DNA of 64,000 nucleotides from Murinocardiopsis flavida (GTDB taxonomy: Bacteria > Actinomycetota > Actinomycetes > Streptosporangiales > Streptosporangiaceae): the NCBI RefSeq assembly GCF_003014485.1, contig NZ_PYGA01000005.1, positions 186,001 through 250,000 of the forward strand, written 5' to 3'. The position numbers and the translations under genes were made by a program. Positions 1-10,397 of this stretch are shown in pieces; within the stretch, counting starts at the first letter, position 1; the number at the start of each line of letters is the position of its first letter. Under the pieces are notes generated by a model, which saw only the letters and a list, made by a program, of their open reading frames with translations, did not search any database and had not been told where the DNA came from.

Positions 1-179
1 GGCCCGCCGCCCTCCTCCCACAGGGCGACCGCCGCGTCGGAGGCGGGACGCAGGGCGCCGCTGTCGTCGCGGAGCAGACGGTAGGCGTCGGCGTCGATCG
101 TGGTGCGGGACGCGAGGCGGGTGCGCAGCCGCTCCGCGAGCCCGCGCAGCTCCGTGACGGTGGTGCCGTCCTCAGCCAT
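1..179 (-). CDS. Hypothetical protein, 3' end beyond window edge
   Basis: Only the first 59 or so codons are in the window. The product begins MAEDGTTVTELRGLAERLRT and is acidic, without a recognisable domain. The ATG at 179 overlaps the TGA of the AAA+ ATPase gene upstream (stop at 172-174), so it is the third gene of a translationally coupled leftward operon that also holds a membrane protein. I do not recognise the family. The tight coupling suggests it works with the ATPase, but that is inference. Confidence 0.6.
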   Translation of the reverse strand, partial: MAEDGTTVTELRGLAERLRTRLASRTTIDADAYRLLRDDSGALRPASDAAVALWEEGGG

Positions 180-2190
180 TCGCCGCCACCGCCAGCTCGT
201 CGCCGTCGACCATCAGCAGCACCCGGGCGGTGCGGCGGCCGGTCTCCTCGGTGTCGTCCAGCAGGCGCAGCAGCGGCGGGACGAGGTCGTCGACGCACCG
301 CCGCACGCCGCGCGCCGCCTGCTCCGGCCGGGACCGCCACGCCAGCGACCCGATGTGGGCGGGGACGTCGGCGCGCCAGGTGACCGTGACGTCGAGCCCC
401 GCGAGGGTCCGCTCGGCGAAGCGGCGCAGTTCGACCTCTGCGATCTCGCGGAGCTCGTCGGGGCCGAGCGCCGCGAACAGCACGACGTCGTCCAGGCGGT
501 TGATGAGCTCGGGCCGGAAGGAGGCGCGCAGGGTGCGCCGCAGTTGCGCCCCCGGGCCGTCGGCGCCGTCGGGGCGGTCGGCCCTGGCAGCGGCCTCAGG
601 GCCGAACATGGTGGTGAGCAGTTCGTCGACCTGCGCGGCAGGGTCGTCCGGCCCCGGCTCGTTCTGGGACCGGCCCAGTTCGGCGAACTCCGCCGCGCCG
701 AGGTTGGAGGTCAGCACGATCATGGTGTCGTACGCCTCGCGGAGCGGGCCGGCGGGATCGTTCACCGCGCCTTCGTCCAGGAGCCGCAGCAGGGCGTCGA
801 GCACCCGGGAGTCGGCCTTCTCGACCTCGTCGAAGAGGAACACCCGCCGCGGGTTGTCGCGCAGCCCGTTGGTGAGGCGGCCCGCGCCGAACCCCACGTA
901 CCCGGGCGGGGCGCCGACGAAGTAGTTGATGGACTCGCGGGTGTTGAACTGGCCCATCTCGAAGACCAGGGTGTCGGCCTCGCTGCCGTACACCATCTTG
1001 GCGAGCAGCCGGGCGGTGAGGGTCTTCCCAGCGCCACTCGGGCCGCAGAACAGGAACGCGGCGCGGGGCCGGTCGCCGAAGCGGAAGCCGCGCGCGAGGC
1101 CGCGCTTGACGCCTTCGATGTGCGGCGCGAGGCGCTCGACGACGCTGCGTTGCCCGACGAGGTTGCGCCGGAACCAGGCGAGCTCCTCGGCGACGCCGCC
1201 CGAGCGCACACCGGTGTCGGCGGGCGGCTGCTCGGCGTAGTAGGAGTCGGCGTAGCGGAGCAGCTTCGCCGGGTCGATGCCGGTGTCGCGGAAGAACGCC
1301 GCGGCGAGCCCGTTCGGGGAGTCGACCAGTGCCGCCAGGAGGTCGCGTTCGGCGATGGTCTCGGAGCGGCGGTGCGCGGCGCCCTTGGCGGCCTTGTCGA
1401 ACACGTGGCGCAGCGACTCCTCCATCGCGTCCTCGGCGAGTACGGGCTCGACCTGTTCGCCGGCGCCGCTGCGTCCGCCGACGAGCAGCTGGGTCTGGAC
1501 GCGCAGCGCGGCGAGGTCGTAGCCGGAGAAGTGGCAGCTCTGCTCCACCAGTCCGCCCGGTGCGACGACCATGGCGTGCAGCAGGATGGGCGCGCCGAGC
1601 CGCGTGTGGCGCAGCCCGGCGGCGTCGGCCGCCATGATCCGCAGGACGGTCCGCGCCCCTGGGGAGAACGCGGCGGTGGCGAGTGCGCCGTCGGTGCCGA
1701 ACACCGCAGCAGGGCGCTGCGGGACCGCCGCCACCGCGTCGCGCCACGCCGCGAGGTCGACCCTGCCGTAGCGGGCGAGCAGTTCGCGGTCGCGGACGTG
1801 CAGGCCGTCGAGGACGGCGCTGAGCACGCGGCGCTCGTCGAGCACCGCGGCGCCGTCGGCGCACTCGCCGCGGAGCCGGGCGAACACGGCACGGGTGGCA
1901 CGGTTCGCCGTGGCGTCGTCGAGCCCCGCCGCCGCCTGAGTGCCGAACCGCGGGCTCTGGCCGCCGCGCGCCGCGAGTGCCGCGGCGAACACGTCGACGG
2001 GGATGCGGGCGCTCGCGAACAGCGAGGCCGCGAGCCCGCCCTTGATCCGGCCGAGCACGACGAGCAGGTGGACGGGTTCGACGCGCACGGCGCCGGTCTC
2101 GGCGGCGACCAGCGCCGCGGCGCCGAACCCGTCGGTGGCCGCGAGCAGGTCGGGGTCGACGGCGCGCGCCGGGATGCCCATGATGTCCAT
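172..2190 (-). CDS. ClpA/ClpB-like AAA+ ATPase with Clp_N-type repeats
   Basis: A 672-residue Hsp100-like protein. Residues 1-330 contain what look like three Clp_N-type helical repeats (starting near residues 10, 160 and 235). One AAA+ module of ClpB D2 type follows. Walker A GPSGAGKT lies near residue 385, the aromatic pore loop GAPPGYVG near 425, Walker B FLFDEVEKAD near 450, sensor-1 VLTSNLG near 490, and FRPELINRLDD, which carries the arginine-finger region, near 550. A classical ClpB has two AAA+ rings and a coiled-coil middle domain; both the first ring and the middle domain are missing here. No ClpP-docking IGF/L loop was noticed. The start at 2190 is one base after the stop of the upstream membrane-protein gene, which is why I prefer it to the in-frame ATG further upstream. 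The likely role is ATP-driven remodelling of a protein supplied by its operon; the substrate is unknown. Confidence 0.8.
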   Translation of the reverse strand: MDIMGIPARAVDPDLLAATDGFGAAALVAAETGAVRVEPVHLLVVLGRIKGGLAASLFASARIPVDVFAAALAARGGQSPRFGTQAAAGLDDATANRATRAVFARLRGECADGAAVLDERRVLSAVLDGLHVRDRELLARYGRVDLAAWRDAVAAVPQRPAAVFGTDGALATAAFSPGARTVLRIMAADAAGLRHTRLGAPILLHAMVVAPGGLVEQSCHFSGYDLAALRVQTQLLVGGRSGAGEQVEPVLAEDAMEESLRHVFDKAAKGAAHRRSETIAERDLLAALVDSPNGLAAAFFRDTGIDPAKLLRYADSYYAEQPPADTGVRSGGVAEELAWFRRNLVGQRSVVERLAPHIEGVKRGLARGFRFGDRPRAAFLFCGPSGAGKTLTARLLAKMVYGSEADTLVFEMGQFNTRESINYFVGAPPGYVGFGAGRLTNGLRDNPRRVFLFDEVEKADSRVLDALLRLLDEGAVNDPAGPLREAYDTMIVLTSNLGAAEFAELGRSQNEPGPDDPAAQVDELLTTMFGPEAAARADRPDGADGPGAQLRRTLRASFRPELINRLDDVVLFAALGPDELREIAEVELRRFAERTLAGLDVTVTWRADVPAHIGSLAWRSRPEQAARGVRRCVDDLVPPLLRLLDDTEETGRRTARVLLMVDGDELAVAANG

Positions 2191-2191
2191 G

Positions 2192-4309
2192 TCAGGCCCC
2201 CCGCAGCAGTGATTCGGCGGCCGCCAGCCGACGCCCGACGTCGTCCTCGGCGCCGTACATGCGCAGCGCCGCACCGCCGCGGCGGGGGTCGCCGGGGCCG
2301 TCGCCGAGGAACGCGGCGACCTCGGCGAGGATCCGGTGCGCCGCGGCGACCCTGACCTGGTGGACGACTGCGGCGCGGCCGTCGGCGCCCGCCGCGGGCA
2401 GCGCCTCGAACATCCGCGCGAGCCGGTCGTCGTCGGCGGCCGACCGGGCGCTGCGCGCGCCCCACGACAGGACCGTGGCCGGGTCGAACGGCACGTGCCG
2501 CGCCCAGGCGGCGGCGTGCCGGCGGTGGACGGCGTCCATCGCGGCGGGGAACGCGTGGAGGTCGCCGCCCAGCACCGCCGCCGTCAGGTCCGCCGCCTCC
2601 GCCGCCTCGGGCAGCGCGGCGCGCAGCGCAGCGGGGTCGTGGCGCAGGTGCCGCAGCGCGGATCCGGGGTCGCCGAGGTGCAGGGAGAGGAGGGCCACGA
2701 GGAAGCGGACGGTCGGCGACCCGGGGTCGCGGCCGTGCTCGCGGGCGATGCGGCCGACGAGCGACGGGTCGCCGGGCGCCAGGCGTCCGCTGCCGAGTTC
2801 GGCCGCTGCGAGCAGCAGTCGGTAGTCGGGCGCGTCGACCAGCGCGACCGCCGCCCGCAGGTGCCGTTCGGCGCCCTCGGGGTCGCCGTCGCGCAGCAGC
2901 GCGTGGCCCGCCCCCGCCTCCAGGTGCGCCAGCCGGGCCTGGGCGCCGGGAAAGCCGTAGGCGATGGCGGCGCGGTAGCGCGGTCGCGCCAGTGCGGGCG
3001 CGCCGCGCTCCGCGGCGGAGTCGGCGAGGACGCACAGCCACGCGCCGGGCGTGTGCGGGGCGCCCTGCGGCGCGAGCCGCGCCAGGAGGTCCCATTCCGG
3101 CGCTGCGGGGTCGGGGGCGGCGGACTCGGTGAGGGCGGCGTCGAGGCCGGCGAGGACCCGGTGCACCGCTCGGGTGCGGAACACCGGGGCCACGTGTTCG
3201 GGGGCCACCGTGAGCAGGGCGCTGTCGATGTGGCGGAAGGGGTGCACGGCGCCGTCGAGCCGGGTCGCGATCGAGACGACGGCGTCCCAGGTCTCGTCGA
3301 ACGAACCGTCGGCGGGGTTGCGGGTCCACTGCCCCAGCGCCGCGCCGAACACCTTGGGGGTGAGCAGGACGGGGTTGTCGTCGAGCATGCGGATCACGAG
3401 TTCGGGGTGCTCCAGCGCGCACTTCTCCACCTCGGCGCCGATGAGCCCCTTCGCCCGCTCCACCTGCTGGGGGGTCGCCCTGCCGAGGAATGCCAGCAGC
3501 GCCAGCACGACGCCTTCGGCCCCACCGGAGGACTGCGCGCGGCGGGCCCGCTGCACGGACGCGCGCAGCGCCGCGACCGGGTCGGTGTGCTCGCGCACGG
3601 TCGCACCCGCCAATGCCAGCGCGGGCGACTCGCCGTCGCCGCGCGGCACCCACGGCACGGCGGCGAGGACCAGGATCCGGCCGCACATGTGCCCCAGGAG
3701 GAACACGAGCACGGCGGTCGGCACGGCGAGCATGAAGGGGATGCCGATGGCGGCCGGGCCGAGCCAGCTGTACACGGGGCCGGGGAACATCTCGGGGTAC
3801 CCGCGGACGAGGGCGTAGAGCAGGGCGGCGTAGGCCACCGTGCCCACCCACCACAGCACGGGCAGGGTCAGCAGCGCCCAATGGGGTGTCAGCAGCCACA
3901 GAATGGGCCGGCCGGGCAGGAAGAACACCGCGATCACGCAGGCGAGCACGAACACGAACACGGTGGTGCCGAGGTAGGAGTCGCTCTGCGCGCCGGCGGC
4001 GCGCCGCTCGGTCTCCAGCTCATCGGCGAGCGCGTCGGTCTCGGCGCCGGGCGGCAGCGCGTGCAGCCCGGCGATGCGCCGGCGGTACACGCCCAGCCGC
4101 CGCGATACCCGGACGGCGGAGATCGCGCCCCGCGCCCGCAGCAGTCCCAGTGCCGCCCCGGCGCCGAGGAGGGTCTCGGCGATGCCCGGGTCGTAGCCGT
4201 GCACCAGGGGGTCGGCCACCAGCAGGGCGAGTGCGATGAAGCCCGCGGTGCCGGTGAGCACGGCGGCGATCGCCGCAAGGGTCTCCCTTGTGCGCGACGA
4301 ATCGCCCAT
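2192..4309 (-). CDS. Membrane protein with tandem-helical C-terminal region
   Basis: A 705-residue protein that I cannot assign to a named family. The first 230 residues hold several hydrophobic segments: two near 15-65, then a cluster near 125-215 after a charged cytoplasmic stretch. The remaining 470 residues are Ala/Leu/Arg-rich with spacing that resembles TPR-like helical pairs, for example around LAHLEAGAGHALLRDGDPEG near residue 460. The start at 4309 follows a strong GGAGGG ribosome-binding site. The stop is one base before the start of the ClpB-like ATPase gene, so the two are translationally coupled. A membrane-anchored scaffold that recruits or feeds the ATPase is a reasonable inference, not something the sequence proves. 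Confidence 0.65.
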   Translation of the reverse strand: MGDSSRTRETLAAIAAVLTGTAGFIALALLVADPLVHGYDPGIAETLLGAGAALGLLRARGAISAVRVSRRLGVYRRRIAGLHALPPGAETDALADELETERRAAGAQSDSYLGTTVFVFVLACVIAVFFLPGRPILWLLTPHWALLTLPVLWWVGTVAYAALLYALVRGYPEMFPGPVYSWLGPAAIGIPFMLAVPTAVLVFLLGHMCGRILVLAAVPWVPRGDGESPALALAGATVREHTDPVAALRASVQRARRAQSSGGAEGVVLALLAFLGRATPQQVERAKGLIGAEVEKCALEHPELVIRMLDDNPVLLTPKVFGAALGQWTRNPADGSFDETWDAVVSIATRLDGAVHPFRHIDSALLTVAPEHVAPVFRTRAVHRVLAGLDAALTESAAPDPAAPEWDLLARLAPQGAPHTPGAWLCVLADSAAERGAPALARPRYRAAIAYGFPGAQARLAHLEAGAGHALLRDGDPEGAERHLRAAVALVDAPDYRLLLAAAELGSGRLAPGDPSLVGRIAREHGRDPGSPTVRFLVALLSLHLGDPGSALRHLRHDPAALRAALPEAAEAADLTAAVLGGDLHAFPAAMDAVHRRHAAAWARHVPFDPATVLSWGARSARSAADDDRLARMFEALPAAGADGRAAVVHQVRVAAAHRILAEVAAFLGDGPGDPRRGGAALRMYGAEDDVGRRLAAAESLLRGA

Positions 4310-4385
4310 GGACCCTCCTCTCCGACCAGGGCGGCCGGCGGGCGCCGCGGCCGGGTGGGAACGCCCCGCACATTGGACGCCGTCC

Positions 4386-4415
4386 GGCCCCGTCCATCAT
4401 TCAATGGACGGGGCC
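4386..4415. terminator. Perfect 12-bp hairpin, likely terminator
   Basis: GGCCCCGTCCAT at 4386-4397 is perfectly complementary to 4404-4415, leaving a 6-base loop. It lies downstream of the leftward anmK/AGE operon (last stop at 4551) and just upstream of the next leftward operon (start 4309). Transcription termination of the first operon is the simplest reading. There is no T-run, as is usual in actinobacteria. Confidence 0.6.
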
Positions 4416-4550
4416 GCCGCATCCACTGCGTGGCCGCCTATGGCCGACTTCTGTACCTGTCCGGAAAAGGTGGTACCGGCAGAGCGCCCGGCGCGGAGAG
4501 GTCACGGGGCCGGGGGGCGGGGAGGGCCGGGGGGCAGGGAGGGTCGGGGG

Positions 4551-7296: not shown

Positions 7297-8925
7297 GTGA
7301 GCGTGACAGCGGACGGCGCGTCCCATGGAAGCCCCGATACCGCGGCAGAGGCCCGGCGCCGCCGGACGTTCGCGGTCATCTCGCACCCCGACGCCGGCAA
7401 GTCGACGCTCACCGAGGCGCTCGCGCTGCACGCCGCGGCGATCACCTCGGCCGGCGCGGTCCACGGCAAGGGCGAGCGGCGGGGGGTCACCTCCGACTGG
7501 ATGGACATGGAGCGCGCCCGCGGCATCTCCATCACCTCGGCCGCGCTGCGCATCGACTACGACGACTGCGTGCTGAACCTGCTCGACACCCCCGGCCACG
7601 CCGACTTCTCCGAGGACACCTACCGGGTGCTCGCCGCGGTCGACTGCGCGATCATGCTGCTCGACTCCGCGAAGGGCCTCGAACCGCAGACCCTGAAGTT
7701 GTTCGACGTGTGCCGCGCCCGCTCCGTCCCGGTCATCACCTTCGTCAACAAGTGGGACCGGCCCGGCCGCGAGCCCCTCGAACTGCTCGACGAGATCGAG
7801 CAGCGCATCGGGCTGCGGCCCACCCCGCTGAACTGGCCGGTCGGCATCGCCGGCGACTTCCGCGGCCTCATCGACCGCTCCGCGGGCGACACCTACACCA
7901 AGATGCACCGCACCCCCGGCGGCGCCACCCGCGCCGAGGAGCAGCCGCTGAGCCACGCGGACGCGGCCGAAACCGAGGGCGCGGTGTGGGCGCAGTCGCT
8001 GGAGGAGCTCGAACTCCTCGGCGAGATCGGCGCCGACTACGACGAGGAGTCCTTCCTGGCGGGCAAGTCCTCCCCGGTGCTGTTCGGCGCGGCACTGCCC
8101 AACTTCGGCGTGGCCCAGCTCCTGCGGACCCTCGTCCGCCTCGCGCCGCCGCCCTCGGCCGAGGCCGACGAGAAGGGCCGACCGCGCCCCGTCGACGCCC
8201 CGTTCTCCGGCCTGGTGTTCAAGATGCAGGCCAACATGGACAAGGCGCACCGCGACCGCATGGCGTTCGTCCGGGTGTGCTCGGGCCGGTTCGAGCGGGG
8301 GATGGTGCTGACCCACGCGAGCACCGGGCGGCCGTTCGCGACCAAGTACTCCCAGGCCGTGTTCGGCTCGGAGCGCCAGACCATCGACACCGCCTACCCC
8401 GGCGATGTGATCGCGCTGGTGAACGCCCATTCACTGCGGGTCGGCGACACCCTGTTCGACGGCCCCGAGGTGCACTTCCCACCCATCCCCAGCTTCGCCC
8501 CCGAGCACTTCGCCGTTGCGCGGGCGCTCGACGCTGGGCGCTACAAGCAGTTCCGGCGCGGGATCGAGCAGATGGACGCCGAGGGCGTGGTGCAGGTGCT
8601 GACCTCCGACGTCCGCGGCGAGCAGGCGCCCGTGCTGGCCGCGGTCGGGCCGCTCCAGTTCGACGTGGTCAAGCACCGGATGGAGCAGGAGTTCCGGGCG
8701 CCCATCGAACTCGCGCACATCGACTACAACGTGGCGCGCCGCACCGACGCCGCCTCGGCGCCCGTCCTGCACGGGCTGTCGGGCGCCGAGGTGCTCAAGC
8801 GGCGCTCCGACGGCGAACTGCTGATGCTCGTGCACAACAAGTGGCGGCTCAAGGTCATCGAGCGCGACCACCCCGAGGCGGTCATGGAACCCCTCCTCGC
8901 CGGAGGCGTCGAGGCCGACGCCTGA
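7297..8925 (+). CDS. prfC: Peptide chain release factor 3 (RF-3 GTPase)
   Basis: RF3 is the GTPase that removes RF1/RF2 from the ribosome after peptide release. At 542 residues it is the usual size. G1 is SHPDAGKST (residues 29-37), G3 DTPGHADF is near 98, and G4 NKWD is near 150. The segment FSGLVFKMQANMDKAHRDR near 307 is typical of RF3 and separates it from EF-G. The GTG at 7297 is chosen because AGGAG at 7281-7285 lies 11 bases upstream; a second GTG at 7303 is also possible. Earlier in-frame ATGs would add a non-conserved Arg-rich leader. The gene is divergent from anmK. Confidence 0.93.
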   Translation: MSVTADGASHGSPDTAAEARRRRTFAVISHPDAGKSTLTEALALHAAAITSAGAVHGKGERRGVTSDWMDMERARGISITSAALRIDYDDCVLNLLDTPGHADFSEDTYRVLAAVDCAIMLLDSAKGLEPQTLKLFDVCRARSVPVITFVNKWDRPGREPLELLDEIEQRIGLRPTPLNWPVGIAGDFRGLIDRSAGDTYTKMHRTPGGATRAEEQPLSHADAAETEGAVWAQSLEELELLGEIGADYDEESFLAGKSSPVLFGAALPNFGVAQLLRTLVRLAPPPSAEADEKGRPRPVDAPFSGLVFKMQANMDKAHRDRMAFVRVCSGRFERGMVLTHASTGRPFATKYSQAVFGSERQTIDTAYPGDVIALVNAHSLRVGDTLFDGPEVHFPPIPSFAPEHFAVARALDAGRYKQFRRGIEQMDAEGVVQVLTSDVRGEQAPVLAAVGPLQFDVVKHRMEQEFRAPIELAHIDYNVARRTDAASAPVLHGLSGAEVLKRRSDGELLMLVHNKWRLKVIERDHPEAVMEPLLAGGVEADA

Positions 8926-9091
8926 CCGGGCCGTGCCCAGTTCGCCGCGCTCCGCGCACGGCGGCGGCCTGCTTACGCCGCGCCGCTCACGGCGGCGGCG
9001 GTGTACTGCCGGGCCGGCCGCCGGCTGTGCGCCACCATGCCCTCAGGCGGTCGACGAGGCGGCCGCCGTGCGCCGGGCGGGGGGTGCCCTT

Positions 9092-10012
9092 TCAGCGGAC
9101 CACCGCCACCGGCCCCGACGCGCCGTGCATCACCGACTGGCTGACCGAGCCCAGCAGCAGGCCGCGGAACCCGCCGCGGCCGCGGGAACCGATGACGATC
9201 AGGTCGGCGGGGCTCGCGACGTCCAGCAGCGCGACCACCGGGTGGCCCCGCTCGATGCGGACCTCGACCGCCACGTCGGGATGGGCGTCGCGCGGCCCGC
9301 TCAGCGCCTCCTCGACGGTCAGGCGCGCGTTCTCCGCGATCGCCTCGTCGTCGAAGACCTCGGCCGGCACCGGCCCCATCGACGACGCGAACGCGGTCAT
9401 GGGCTGCCACGCGCAGACCGCGACCAGCGTGGCGCCGCGCCGCGCCGCCTCGGTGAACGCGAACCCCAGTGCGCGCCCCGACGGCTCCGACCCGTCGACG
9501 CCGACCACCACGCGGCCCTTGACGCCCTTGGCCGCCTCGTGCTGCTTGGGCAGGACGACGACCGGCACCGGCGAGTGCGCCGCCAGTTCGACGCCCACGG
9601 AGCCGACGAAGGCGGAGGCGAAACTGCTGAGCCCGCGCGACCCCACGACGACCGCCGCGGCGTCGGGCTGCTCCGCGGCGTGCAGCAGTGCCACGGCCGC
9701 GCGCTCGCGCACCAACTGCGGCTCGACGGGCAGTTCGGGGTAGAGCCGGGCGATCCAGTCGCGGGCGTAGTCGAGGAGGGCGCGGGCGTGCTTGACCGGC
9801 CGGCGTTCCCCCGCTTCGGGCGTCCGCAGGAAGTCGGCGAAGGGGCCGTCCTCCTCCTCGGGTGAGACCGCGGTGATGACGCGCAGCCCGAACCCGCGCA
9901 GGTCGGCTTCATGCGCCGAGAACTCCAGCGCGTATCGGCTGGAGTCGGAGCCGTCCACCCCGACGACCACCCAGCGGGTCTCGGGATTCTCGCCTGTCGT
10001 ATGGCCGGTCAT
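9092..10012 (-). CDS. Tandem-domain universal stress protein (UspA family)
   Basis: A 306-residue cytoplasmic protein with two Usp domains (about 12-155 and 165-306). Each begins VVVGVDGS. Each ends in the ATP-binding signature G-x2-G-x9-G-[ST]: VVVGSRGLSSFASAFVGS near 158 and IVIGSRGRGGFRGLLLGS near 277. Tandem Usp proteins of this form are common in actinobacteria and often belong to dormancy or hypoxia regulons. I see no clear operator upstream. A structured 385-bp gap separates its start from the helR stop. Confidence 0.92.
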   Translation of the reverse strand: MTGHTTGENPETRWVVVGVDGSDSSRYALEFSAHEADLRGFGLRVITAVSPEEEDGPFADFLRTPEAGERRPVKHARALLDYARDWIARLYPELPVEPQLVRERAAVALLHAAEQPDAAAVVVGSRGLSSFASAFVGSVGVELAAHSPVPVVVLPKQHEAAKGVKGRVVVGVDGSEPSGRALGFAFTEAARRGATLVAVCAWQPMTAFASSMGPVPAEVFDDEAIAENARLTVEEALSGPRDAHPDVAVEVRIERGHPVVALLDVASPADLIVIGSRGRGGFRGLLLGSVSQSVMHGASGPVAVVR

Positions 10013-10397
10013 CTGCCCTTCCTCACTCTCGACTGCTCCATCGGCGCGGCGCGGCGGCGACCGCCTCGCCCTCGTCCCACTTCTACACCGCCGATACGGC
10101 GGCCGGTCGGACCGCCGCCCACTTTGCCGAGAGGCGGCGGCAGCCGGTAACCGATCCGATCGGCGGCGACGGTGGCCGCCCTACCCGGGAATCCGGACTC
10201 AATCCCGGGCGGCCCGACTCCCATTGGGCAGGTCCCTCGCCGATCCTTACGTCATGGGCTTCTCTCAGCCGCGGATGGAACTTCGGCATTCCCGGGTCGG
10301 TCCGCCCGCTGGGCGGCCCGACCCCGAAAGGCCGAAACTCCACCCAGCGGTGAGAGAACCGCTTCGTCATGGCCGGCGGGGTCGGCCCGATGCGGGC
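10013..10397. other. Gene-free region rich in inverted repeats
   Basis: No reading frame here resembles a protein. Several dyads are present, for example CCCGGGA...TCCCGGG around 10189-10209. The large imperfect palindrome at 10260-10358 is listed separately. The region must also hold the promoter of the universal stress protein gene and the 3' end of the helR transcript. Confidence 0.6.
10260..10358. repeat. 99-bp imperfect palindrome flanked by 8-bp direct repeats
   Basis: The sequence folds on itself around position 10309. Outer arms are TTCTCTCA (10260-10267) and TGAGAGAA (10351-10358). The inner stem is CCGCCC-GCT-GGGCGG (10302-10316). Most positions between them also pair, for example GGGTCGG with CCCGACC and TTCGGC with GCCGAA; I count about 38 of 49 pairs. 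CGTCATGG occurs just outside both ends, at 10250-10257 and 10365-10372. It starts 40 bases after the helR stop, so it could be a terminator or RNA structure. The flanking repeats also allow a MITE-like relic. Confidence 0.6.

Follow-up and report, generated by a model that had tools for sequence, protein, structure and literature searches.

What does a single-ring ClpB-like ATPase do beside a large membrane protein, and with which partners does it work? This question is raised by a stretch of 64,000 nucleotides of Murinocardiopsis flavida (positions 186001-250000 of contig C5 of a 7.4-Mb genome), referred to here as the window. An earlier note on this DNA had described at its left end an operon that couples a membrane scaffold and the ATPase to a third, unknown gene, and had proposed a membrane-linked protein-remodelling machine. 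The two minus-strand open reading frames on which this rested, for a 705-amino-acid (aa) membrane protein (MEM) and a 672-aa ATPase (ATP), are present where it had placed them. To follow the operon beyond the edge, an additional 14 kb to the left of the window was examined (locus L007; a window position equals the L007 position minus 14000). In this DNA, the operon continues with genes for a J-like protein, a GrpE-like protein and an Hsp70. Altogether it comprises seven minus-strand genes that cross the left edge of the window and encode, in order, MEM, ATP, the TPR protein HR, the J-like protein, the GrpE-like protein, Hsp70 and a zinc-ribbon/TPR-like protein. The genes of the Hsp70 team escaped the earlier note because they lie to the left of the window. 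Its unknown third gene is the one encoding HR, and its trio was incomplete, as the actual machine is an Hsp70 system with J-like and GrpE-like partners of its own. We propose, with a probability of roughly 0.6, that the seven genes specify a dedicated Hsp70–Hsp100 remodelling machine, the second of the cell, which works alongside the canonical DnaK/DnaJ/GrpE/ClpB system and is probably insulated from it.

The single-ring ATPase

The ATPase has a single AAA module (AAA_2 match at residues 374-568, E 5e-33). In structural comparison with VIA, this part resembles nucleotide-binding domain 2 (NBD2) of ClpB (4fcv_A; Z 25.0, root-mean-square deviation (rmsd) 3.1, 304 aligned) and the single-ring Skd3 (7tts; Z 23.3, rmsd 3.5, 301 aligned). 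The Walker A residues G383, P384, S385, G386, G388, K389 and T390 are invariant in all eight aligned copies, as is Walker B, and the pore loop reads GYVG. As the earlier note had stated, the ring is of the D2 type only: no second AAA+ module was found by domain search, by profile search or in the model, and neither the model nor the alignment of eight copies contains a coiled-coil middle domain. Ahead of the ring, the AlphaFold2 model (mean predicted local distance difference test (pLDDT) 79) places four 4-helix units. Against canonical Clp_N domains taken from related genomes, repeats 1, 3 and 4 reached profile-profile probabilities of 96.5%, 90% and 93%, respectively; repeat 2 is degenerate (0.6% to canonical Clp_N, 67% to repeat 4). 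Residues 173-243 matched a Clp_N-type structure in a profile search (E 3.6e-11). Moreover, the two N-terminal halves match one another at 92.5%, compared with 0.1-0.7% for unrelated controls. Since repeats 1, 3 and 4 match canonical Clp_N and the halves match each other, the N-terminus is made up of two tandem Clp_N domains. The kinship with Clp_N that had been proposed from the sequence is thus borne out, while the count changes from three repeats to four. No ankyrin match was obtained in the N-terminus, where the Clp_N repeats stand. With one ring, doubled Clp_N domains and no middle domain, the protein has the non-standard Clp arrangement that had been claimed for it.

The ClpP-docking loop, which had been named as a point to check, is absent: between sensor 1 and the arginine-finger region, none of the ten ATP copies carries [LIVM]G[FL], which we take to be the docking motif. 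Five of the six pattern-readable two-AAA Clp control genes carry it. A ClpP-linked protease was rejected on these grounds. Identity with ClpV of the type VI secretion system was rejected as well (NCBIfam scores for ClpV1, ClpB and ClpA all lie far under the cut-offs), and so was a known defence system, as PADLOC matches the AAA core only.

A divergent Hsp70 with its own partners

The Hsp70 was recognized by its nucleotide-binding domain (NBD), which matches Pfam HSP70 (E 6e-71) and DnaK (probability 100%) and in which the motifs A72-K73, DLGGGTFD and GGS are invariant in 8/8 aligned copies. About 100 residues that are absent from standard DnaK lie between the NBD and a linker-like motif, DVLAHD, present in six of the eight aligned copies. 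This insert (residues 386-480) shows a weak likeness to a carboxypeptidase regulatory-like fold (4/8 members, best E 0.016). The GrpE-like protein matches canonical GrpE in hhalign with a probability of 91% (E 9e-7) over 120 columns that include the helical and beta parts. Five other operon protein sets reached no better than E 0.13 with canonical GrpE, the score of 48.5 of the GrpE-like set compares with a maximum of 18.4 in 60 column shuffles, and its best PDB profile match is GrpE 4ani (E 0.0018). None of the seven GrpE-like members searched matched Pfam GrpE. For the canonical comparison sets, J domains were chosen by the presence of the HPD (His-Pro-Asp) motif and GrpE frames by charged-residue count.

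The J-like protein aligns with canonical J domains over 58 columns, covering most of the domain, with a score of 22.7 compared with a maximum of 19.4 in 150 shuffles. Its model (pLDDT 73.6) has helices at residues 19-22, 32-48, 62-73 and 75-85, an order like that of J domains, and helix II is strongly basic, as in known J domains. J domains make up 14 of the top 19 Foldseek matches of this model, at poor E-values of 0.6 to 5.5. Pfam gave nothing useful for eight members, and no J domain was among the matches when the J-like profile was run against PDB sequences. As the assignment by any single method is weak, the protein is therefore named J-like and not a J-domain protein. HR has TPR-family matches in most of the eight members searched against Pfam, and in MEM the N-terminal hydrophobic segments, spanning residues 9-221, are followed by a long helical part with sub-threshold TPR matches only (TPR_2, E 0.029).

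According to the available excerpts of PMC7289447, the HPD aspartate acts on the NBD arginine R167 of DnaK. At this position (E161) the operon Hsp70 has Glu in 8/10 copies and Asp in one; in the most divergent copy, that of L049, which carries an insertion of two residues, the equivalent count falls on an Arg. Arg167 is kept in 18/18 DnaK-like sequences from the relatives, while Hsp70-fold proteins that are more distant carry other residues. At the place of HPD, nine J-like copies have [PA][ED]R and all ten have the arginine R52. Both losses thus occur in one operon, with an Hsp70 that lacks the arginine and a J-like protein that lacks HPD. From ten sequences, three of them from one genus, we infer that the arginine and the acid may form a compensating pair. 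It is tempting to go further and to picture a rewired switch (Arg167 to an acid, the J loop to [PA][ED]R with invariant Arg52, and possibly a charge swap) that insulates a second Hsp70–GrpE–Hsp100 team feeding a one-ring motor via tandem Clp_N domains; in this complete form, we consider the idea rather doubtful.

The operon Hsp70 is not alone in having an acid at the Arg167 position, because another divergent actinobacterial Hsp70 (L216; G001:C307:2857-4161), with a GrpE match nearby, has Asp there; it may be part of another private Hsp70 system. Next to the operon of Streptomyces viridochromogenes, in head-to-head orientation, are two additional divergent Hsp70-family genes (L046:5183-7666 and 8412-10013, minus strand). 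One of them encodes 534 aa that match little beyond the NBD, and neither keeps the DnaK Arg167.

Conservation and genomic setting

A scan with one genome per species retained 80 loci, seven of which cover essentially the whole ATPase. They are from an Actinomycetes metagenome-assembled genome (MAG; L043), Embleya scabrispora and E. hyalina (L044, L045), Streptomyces viridochromogenes NRRL 3413 (L046), Pseudofrankia asymbiotica (L047), a MAG labelled Thioalkalivibrio (L048) and a MAG labelled Planctomycetia (L049). Genome searches contributed G881 (L186) and G455 (L187), which together with the window copy gives ten loci. In all ten, the order ATP, HR, J-like, (GrpE-like), Hsp70, zinc/TPR is preserved, and the GrpE-like gene was matched by tblastn in nine. 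The core genes co-occur in 10/10 loci, so that the gene neighbourhood, on whose conservation the earlier note had made its proposal depend, is indeed conserved. The proteins also diverge together. Pairwise identities, for which L045 and L187 were omitted, correlate with r 0.99 for ATP-Hsp70, 0.97 for ATP-J and J-Hsp70, 0.95 for ATP-HR, 0.92 for ATP-GrpE and 0.80 for ATP-zinc, and order and co-divergence persist across the ten loci down to ~30% ATPase identity. Flanking genes vary between loci. In the window copy, successive genes are spaced by 1, -8, 44, -11, -4 and 3 bases (negative values are overlaps); the overlap of 8 bases is that of the HR gene start (window 179) with the ATP gene.

With the ATPase profile at E 1e-75, the operon ATPase was found in 1/396 genomes of the phylum (the window's own), in 3/341 genomes of the host's own family and in 3/394 genomes of the family sampled round G057, the last three all of one genus. 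Among plasmids (72,556 records), the J-like protein had no match, and nowhere did an Hsp70 match reach 80% coverage of the query. The operon is real, conserved and rare; no earlier description of it was found in the literature searched, which left out most subscription papers. The ATPase of L048 is 44% identical to the actinobacterial copy of the window despite the Thioalkalivibrio label, by horizontal transfer or because the contig was mis-binned, and this locus has a two-ring Clp ATPase gene upstream (442-2934). A Ser/Thr kinase gene lies between ATP and HR in L046, L048 and L049, and L047 has a kinase-WD40 gene upstream of MEM; a simple kinase catalytic-loop pattern is present in the kinases of L048 and L049 and was not matched in those of L046 and L047.

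Relatives of the ATPase whose similarity lies mostly in the AAA part were excluded from membership. Of 40 genomes with such matches, the surroundings of nine were taken and searched, together with the 80 scan loci, with the operon proteins and DnaK. DnaK adjoins AAA-part relatives in L041 and in the Aeriscardovia loci L064, L066-L070 and L101, and these DnaKs are of the canonical type (65-80% identity to the host's own DnaK).

The canonical DnaK, GrpE and DnaJ of the host and a two-ring ClpB-type gene are clustered at C3:234-241 kb. Therefore, the operon is a second, additional set. As a positive control, an HspR-type motif (HspR-associated inverted repeat, HAIR) lies next to the canonical dnaK, one mismatch from what we presume to be the consensus; no such motif occurs in the whole 19.5-kb L007 locus. 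HspR heat-shock regulation of the operon was rejected on this comparison, and its regulation probably differs from that of the canonical set. A further Hsp70 gene of the host genome (G000:C33:51318-52736; open frame of 791 aa) retains the canonical Arg. The features of the operon are listed in the table.

Table. Position and support of the operon genes and of features within them. Positions refer to the window unless prefixed L007.
Feature	Position	Strand	Basis
MEM, 705-aa membrane protein	4309-2192	minus	translation, hydropathy
Hydrophobic (transmembrane) region of MEM	3647..4285	minus	Kyte-Doolittle windows
ATP, 672-aa single-ring ClpB-like AAA+ ATPase, tandem Clp_N domains	2190-172	minus	
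First Clp_N domain of ATP (repeats 1+2; repeat 2 degenerate)	1711..2178	minus	hhalign P 96.0% to canonical Clp_N; model helices
Second Clp_N domain of ATP (repeats 3+4)	1216..1698	minus	hhalign P 96.9% to canonical Clp_N; model helices
D2-type AAA+ module of ATP, ClpB NBD2-like	211..1173	minus	profile match, residues 340-648
Walker A of ATP, residues 383-390	1021..1044	minus	alignment of 8 copies
Walker B of ATP, VFLFDE, residues 450-455	826..843	minus	alignment of 8 copies
HR, 431-aa TPR protein	L007:14179-12884 (window 1..179 is its start; ends 1116 bases left of the window)	minus	
J-like protein, 137 aa	L007:12839-12426	minus	
GrpE-like protein, 233 aa	L007:12436-11735	minus	
Hsp70, 855 aa	L007:11738-9171	minus	Pfam HSP70 E 6e-71
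Zinc-ribbon/TPR-like protein, 97 aa	L007:9167-8874	minus	
Probable promoter region, 241-base gap upstream of MEM	4310..4550	not assigned	

A proposed remodelling machine, its alternatives and known systems

From the parts list, the gene order, the co-divergence and the motif losses, which were observed directly, we infer every functional step of the proposed machine. Hsp70, going through its ATP cycle together with the GrpE-like protein, would bind one specific client or complex, and the J-like protein would have a recruiting or tuning role, possibly without classical stimulation. Hsp70 would then pass the client to the AAA+ ring, which would thread it through the GYVG pore. The middle domain is the site at which ClpB normally receives Hsp70; as the ATPase has none, this hand-over would use the tandem Clp_N domains or the TPR proteins. 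Because the ATPase has no ClpP loop, the client would leave the ring unfolded or disassembled, for refolding or disassembly rather than for degradation by ClpP. Potentially, the TPR proteins connect the parts, and MEM might tether the machine to the membrane in some lineages. In some relatives, the presence of kinase genes points to signalling, and not heat, as the switch of the machine. If the proposal is true, bacteria can possess a second, complete Hsp70–Hsp100 machine, diverged from the housekeeping one at the J-protein-responsive contact of Hsp70. The operon would then offer a natural experiment on whether the Arg167–HPD switch is replaceable and on how an Hsp70 feeds an AAA+ ring without a middle domain, with a bacterial one-ring ClpB-like motor of a shape known from human mitochondrial Skd3.

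Several observations weigh against a dedicated Hsp70–Hsp100 machine of this kind. The HPD motif is absent from all ten J-like copies, and kinship with J domains is weak by hhalign (probability 13%) and in structure comparison (Foldseek E no better than 0.4; VIA Z up to 7.6, under the noise mark of 8 of this tool). In Hsp70, the beta part of the substrate-binding domain gave a weak match (probability 3%, with 0/150 shuffles scoring higher), so that client binding is presumed, and the profile comparison returned no match for the lid. The open reading frame at the GrpE-like place in L049 matches the operon GrpE set tentatively (probability 20%). The sample is limited to ten loci, of which a single genus contributes three. 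Finally, MEM was detected in 7/10 loci and went undetected in three, and hydrophobic segments occur in four of the seven detected copies, the three Embleya-type copies being without them. Because of these two counts, MEM looks like an accessory rather than a defining part: remodelling remains a plausible function, but the membrane link proposed in the earlier note does not hold as a universal feature.

The rare, patchy and cross-phylum spread of the operon, with flanking genes that differ between loci, could also be that of a regulatory chaperone module in a conflict- or immune-type system, which sets the threshold for assembly or release of an effector complex, often at the membrane and under kinase control. 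Kinases stand in or beside the operon in 4/10 loci. A published precedent is the GAP1-N2 theme with Hsp70, GrpE and DnaJ/TPR (Kaur et al., 2020; PMC7159879, available excerpts), and in L049 the bpMoxR of MoxR-vWA-beta-propeller ternary systems (E 5e-55) is among the next same-strand genes, a neighbour that hints at a conflict-system role. However, this MoxR link occurs in one locus of ten, PADLOC matches only the AAA core, and no effector, GAP1-N2, GTPase, vWA or MoxR-vWA core was found in the window operon genes or the scanned flanks; we regard this explanation as unlikely. In L049:20273-21868 and L227:1880-10672, bpMoxR and further large genes, one with a terminal ribosomal L9 C-terminal domain, follow the operon tightly on the same strand.

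Alternatively, the joint presence of Hsp70, a GrpE-like protein, an HPD-less J-like protein and a membrane protein with hydrophobic segments might indicate a membrane-anchored Hsp70 motor that moves or assembles proteins at the membrane, like the mitochondrial presequence translocase-associated motor (PAM; Hsp70, GrpE homologue, Pam16 and Tim44). In the excerpts of PMC5773037, Pam16 is likewise a degenerate J-like protein that is unable to stimulate Hsp70. Such a motor is improbable here, as the operon contains no HPD-bearing J partner and no translocon gene, three of the seven MEM copies have no hydrophobic segments, and the AAA+ ring has no counterpart in PAM. The loss of HPD and Arg167 and the strong divergence of the J-like and GrpE-like proteins might even be taken as decay, the operon being a redundant duplicate of housekeeping Hsp70/ClpB genes with no special function. 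However, the catalytic residues of the ATPase and of the Hsp70 NBD are invariant in 8/8 aligned copies, and core order and co-divergence were held across the ten loci at the identities given above; we give this possibility very little credence.

The proposed Hsp70–Hsp100 machine has partial likenesses among known systems. As far as the excerpts of PMC7159879 go, the GAP1-N2 conflict systems are likewise actinobacterial operons with divergent Hsp70, GrpE, DnaJ or TPR parts, but they are built on a GTPase and FNIII-repeat proteins. For their Hsp70/GrpE theme these excerpts, which also treat MoxR-vWA ternary systems, mention no ClpB-like ATPase, and they contain no ClpB-like/Hsp70/J-like/GrpE operon (Kaur et al., 2020). 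With PAM (Pam16/Tim16, Tim44, mtHsp70, Mge1), the operon shares an Hsp70, a GrpE homologue, a degenerate J-like protein and a membrane scaffold; PAM differs by its active J-protein Pam18 and its translocon and has no AAA+ ring, and homology is claimed for single domains at most. Skd3, the human mitochondrial CLPB, has the same single ring of the ClpB-NBD2 type with a different N-terminal module, and it stands outside any operon with Hsp70 partners. Where Skd3 carries ankyrin repeats (PMC9934407, available excerpts), the operon ATPase has tandem Clp_N domains. Compared with ClpB/Hsp104 and DnaK/DnaJ/GrpE, the operon has a single rather than a double ring, lacks the middle domain and the HspR motif, and comes with a doubled Clp_N, a degenerate J partner and extra TPR scaffolds; in common with them it has N-domains of the Clp_N type, a D2-type GYVG ring, the lack of a ClpP loop and the genetic coupling to an Hsp70 team.

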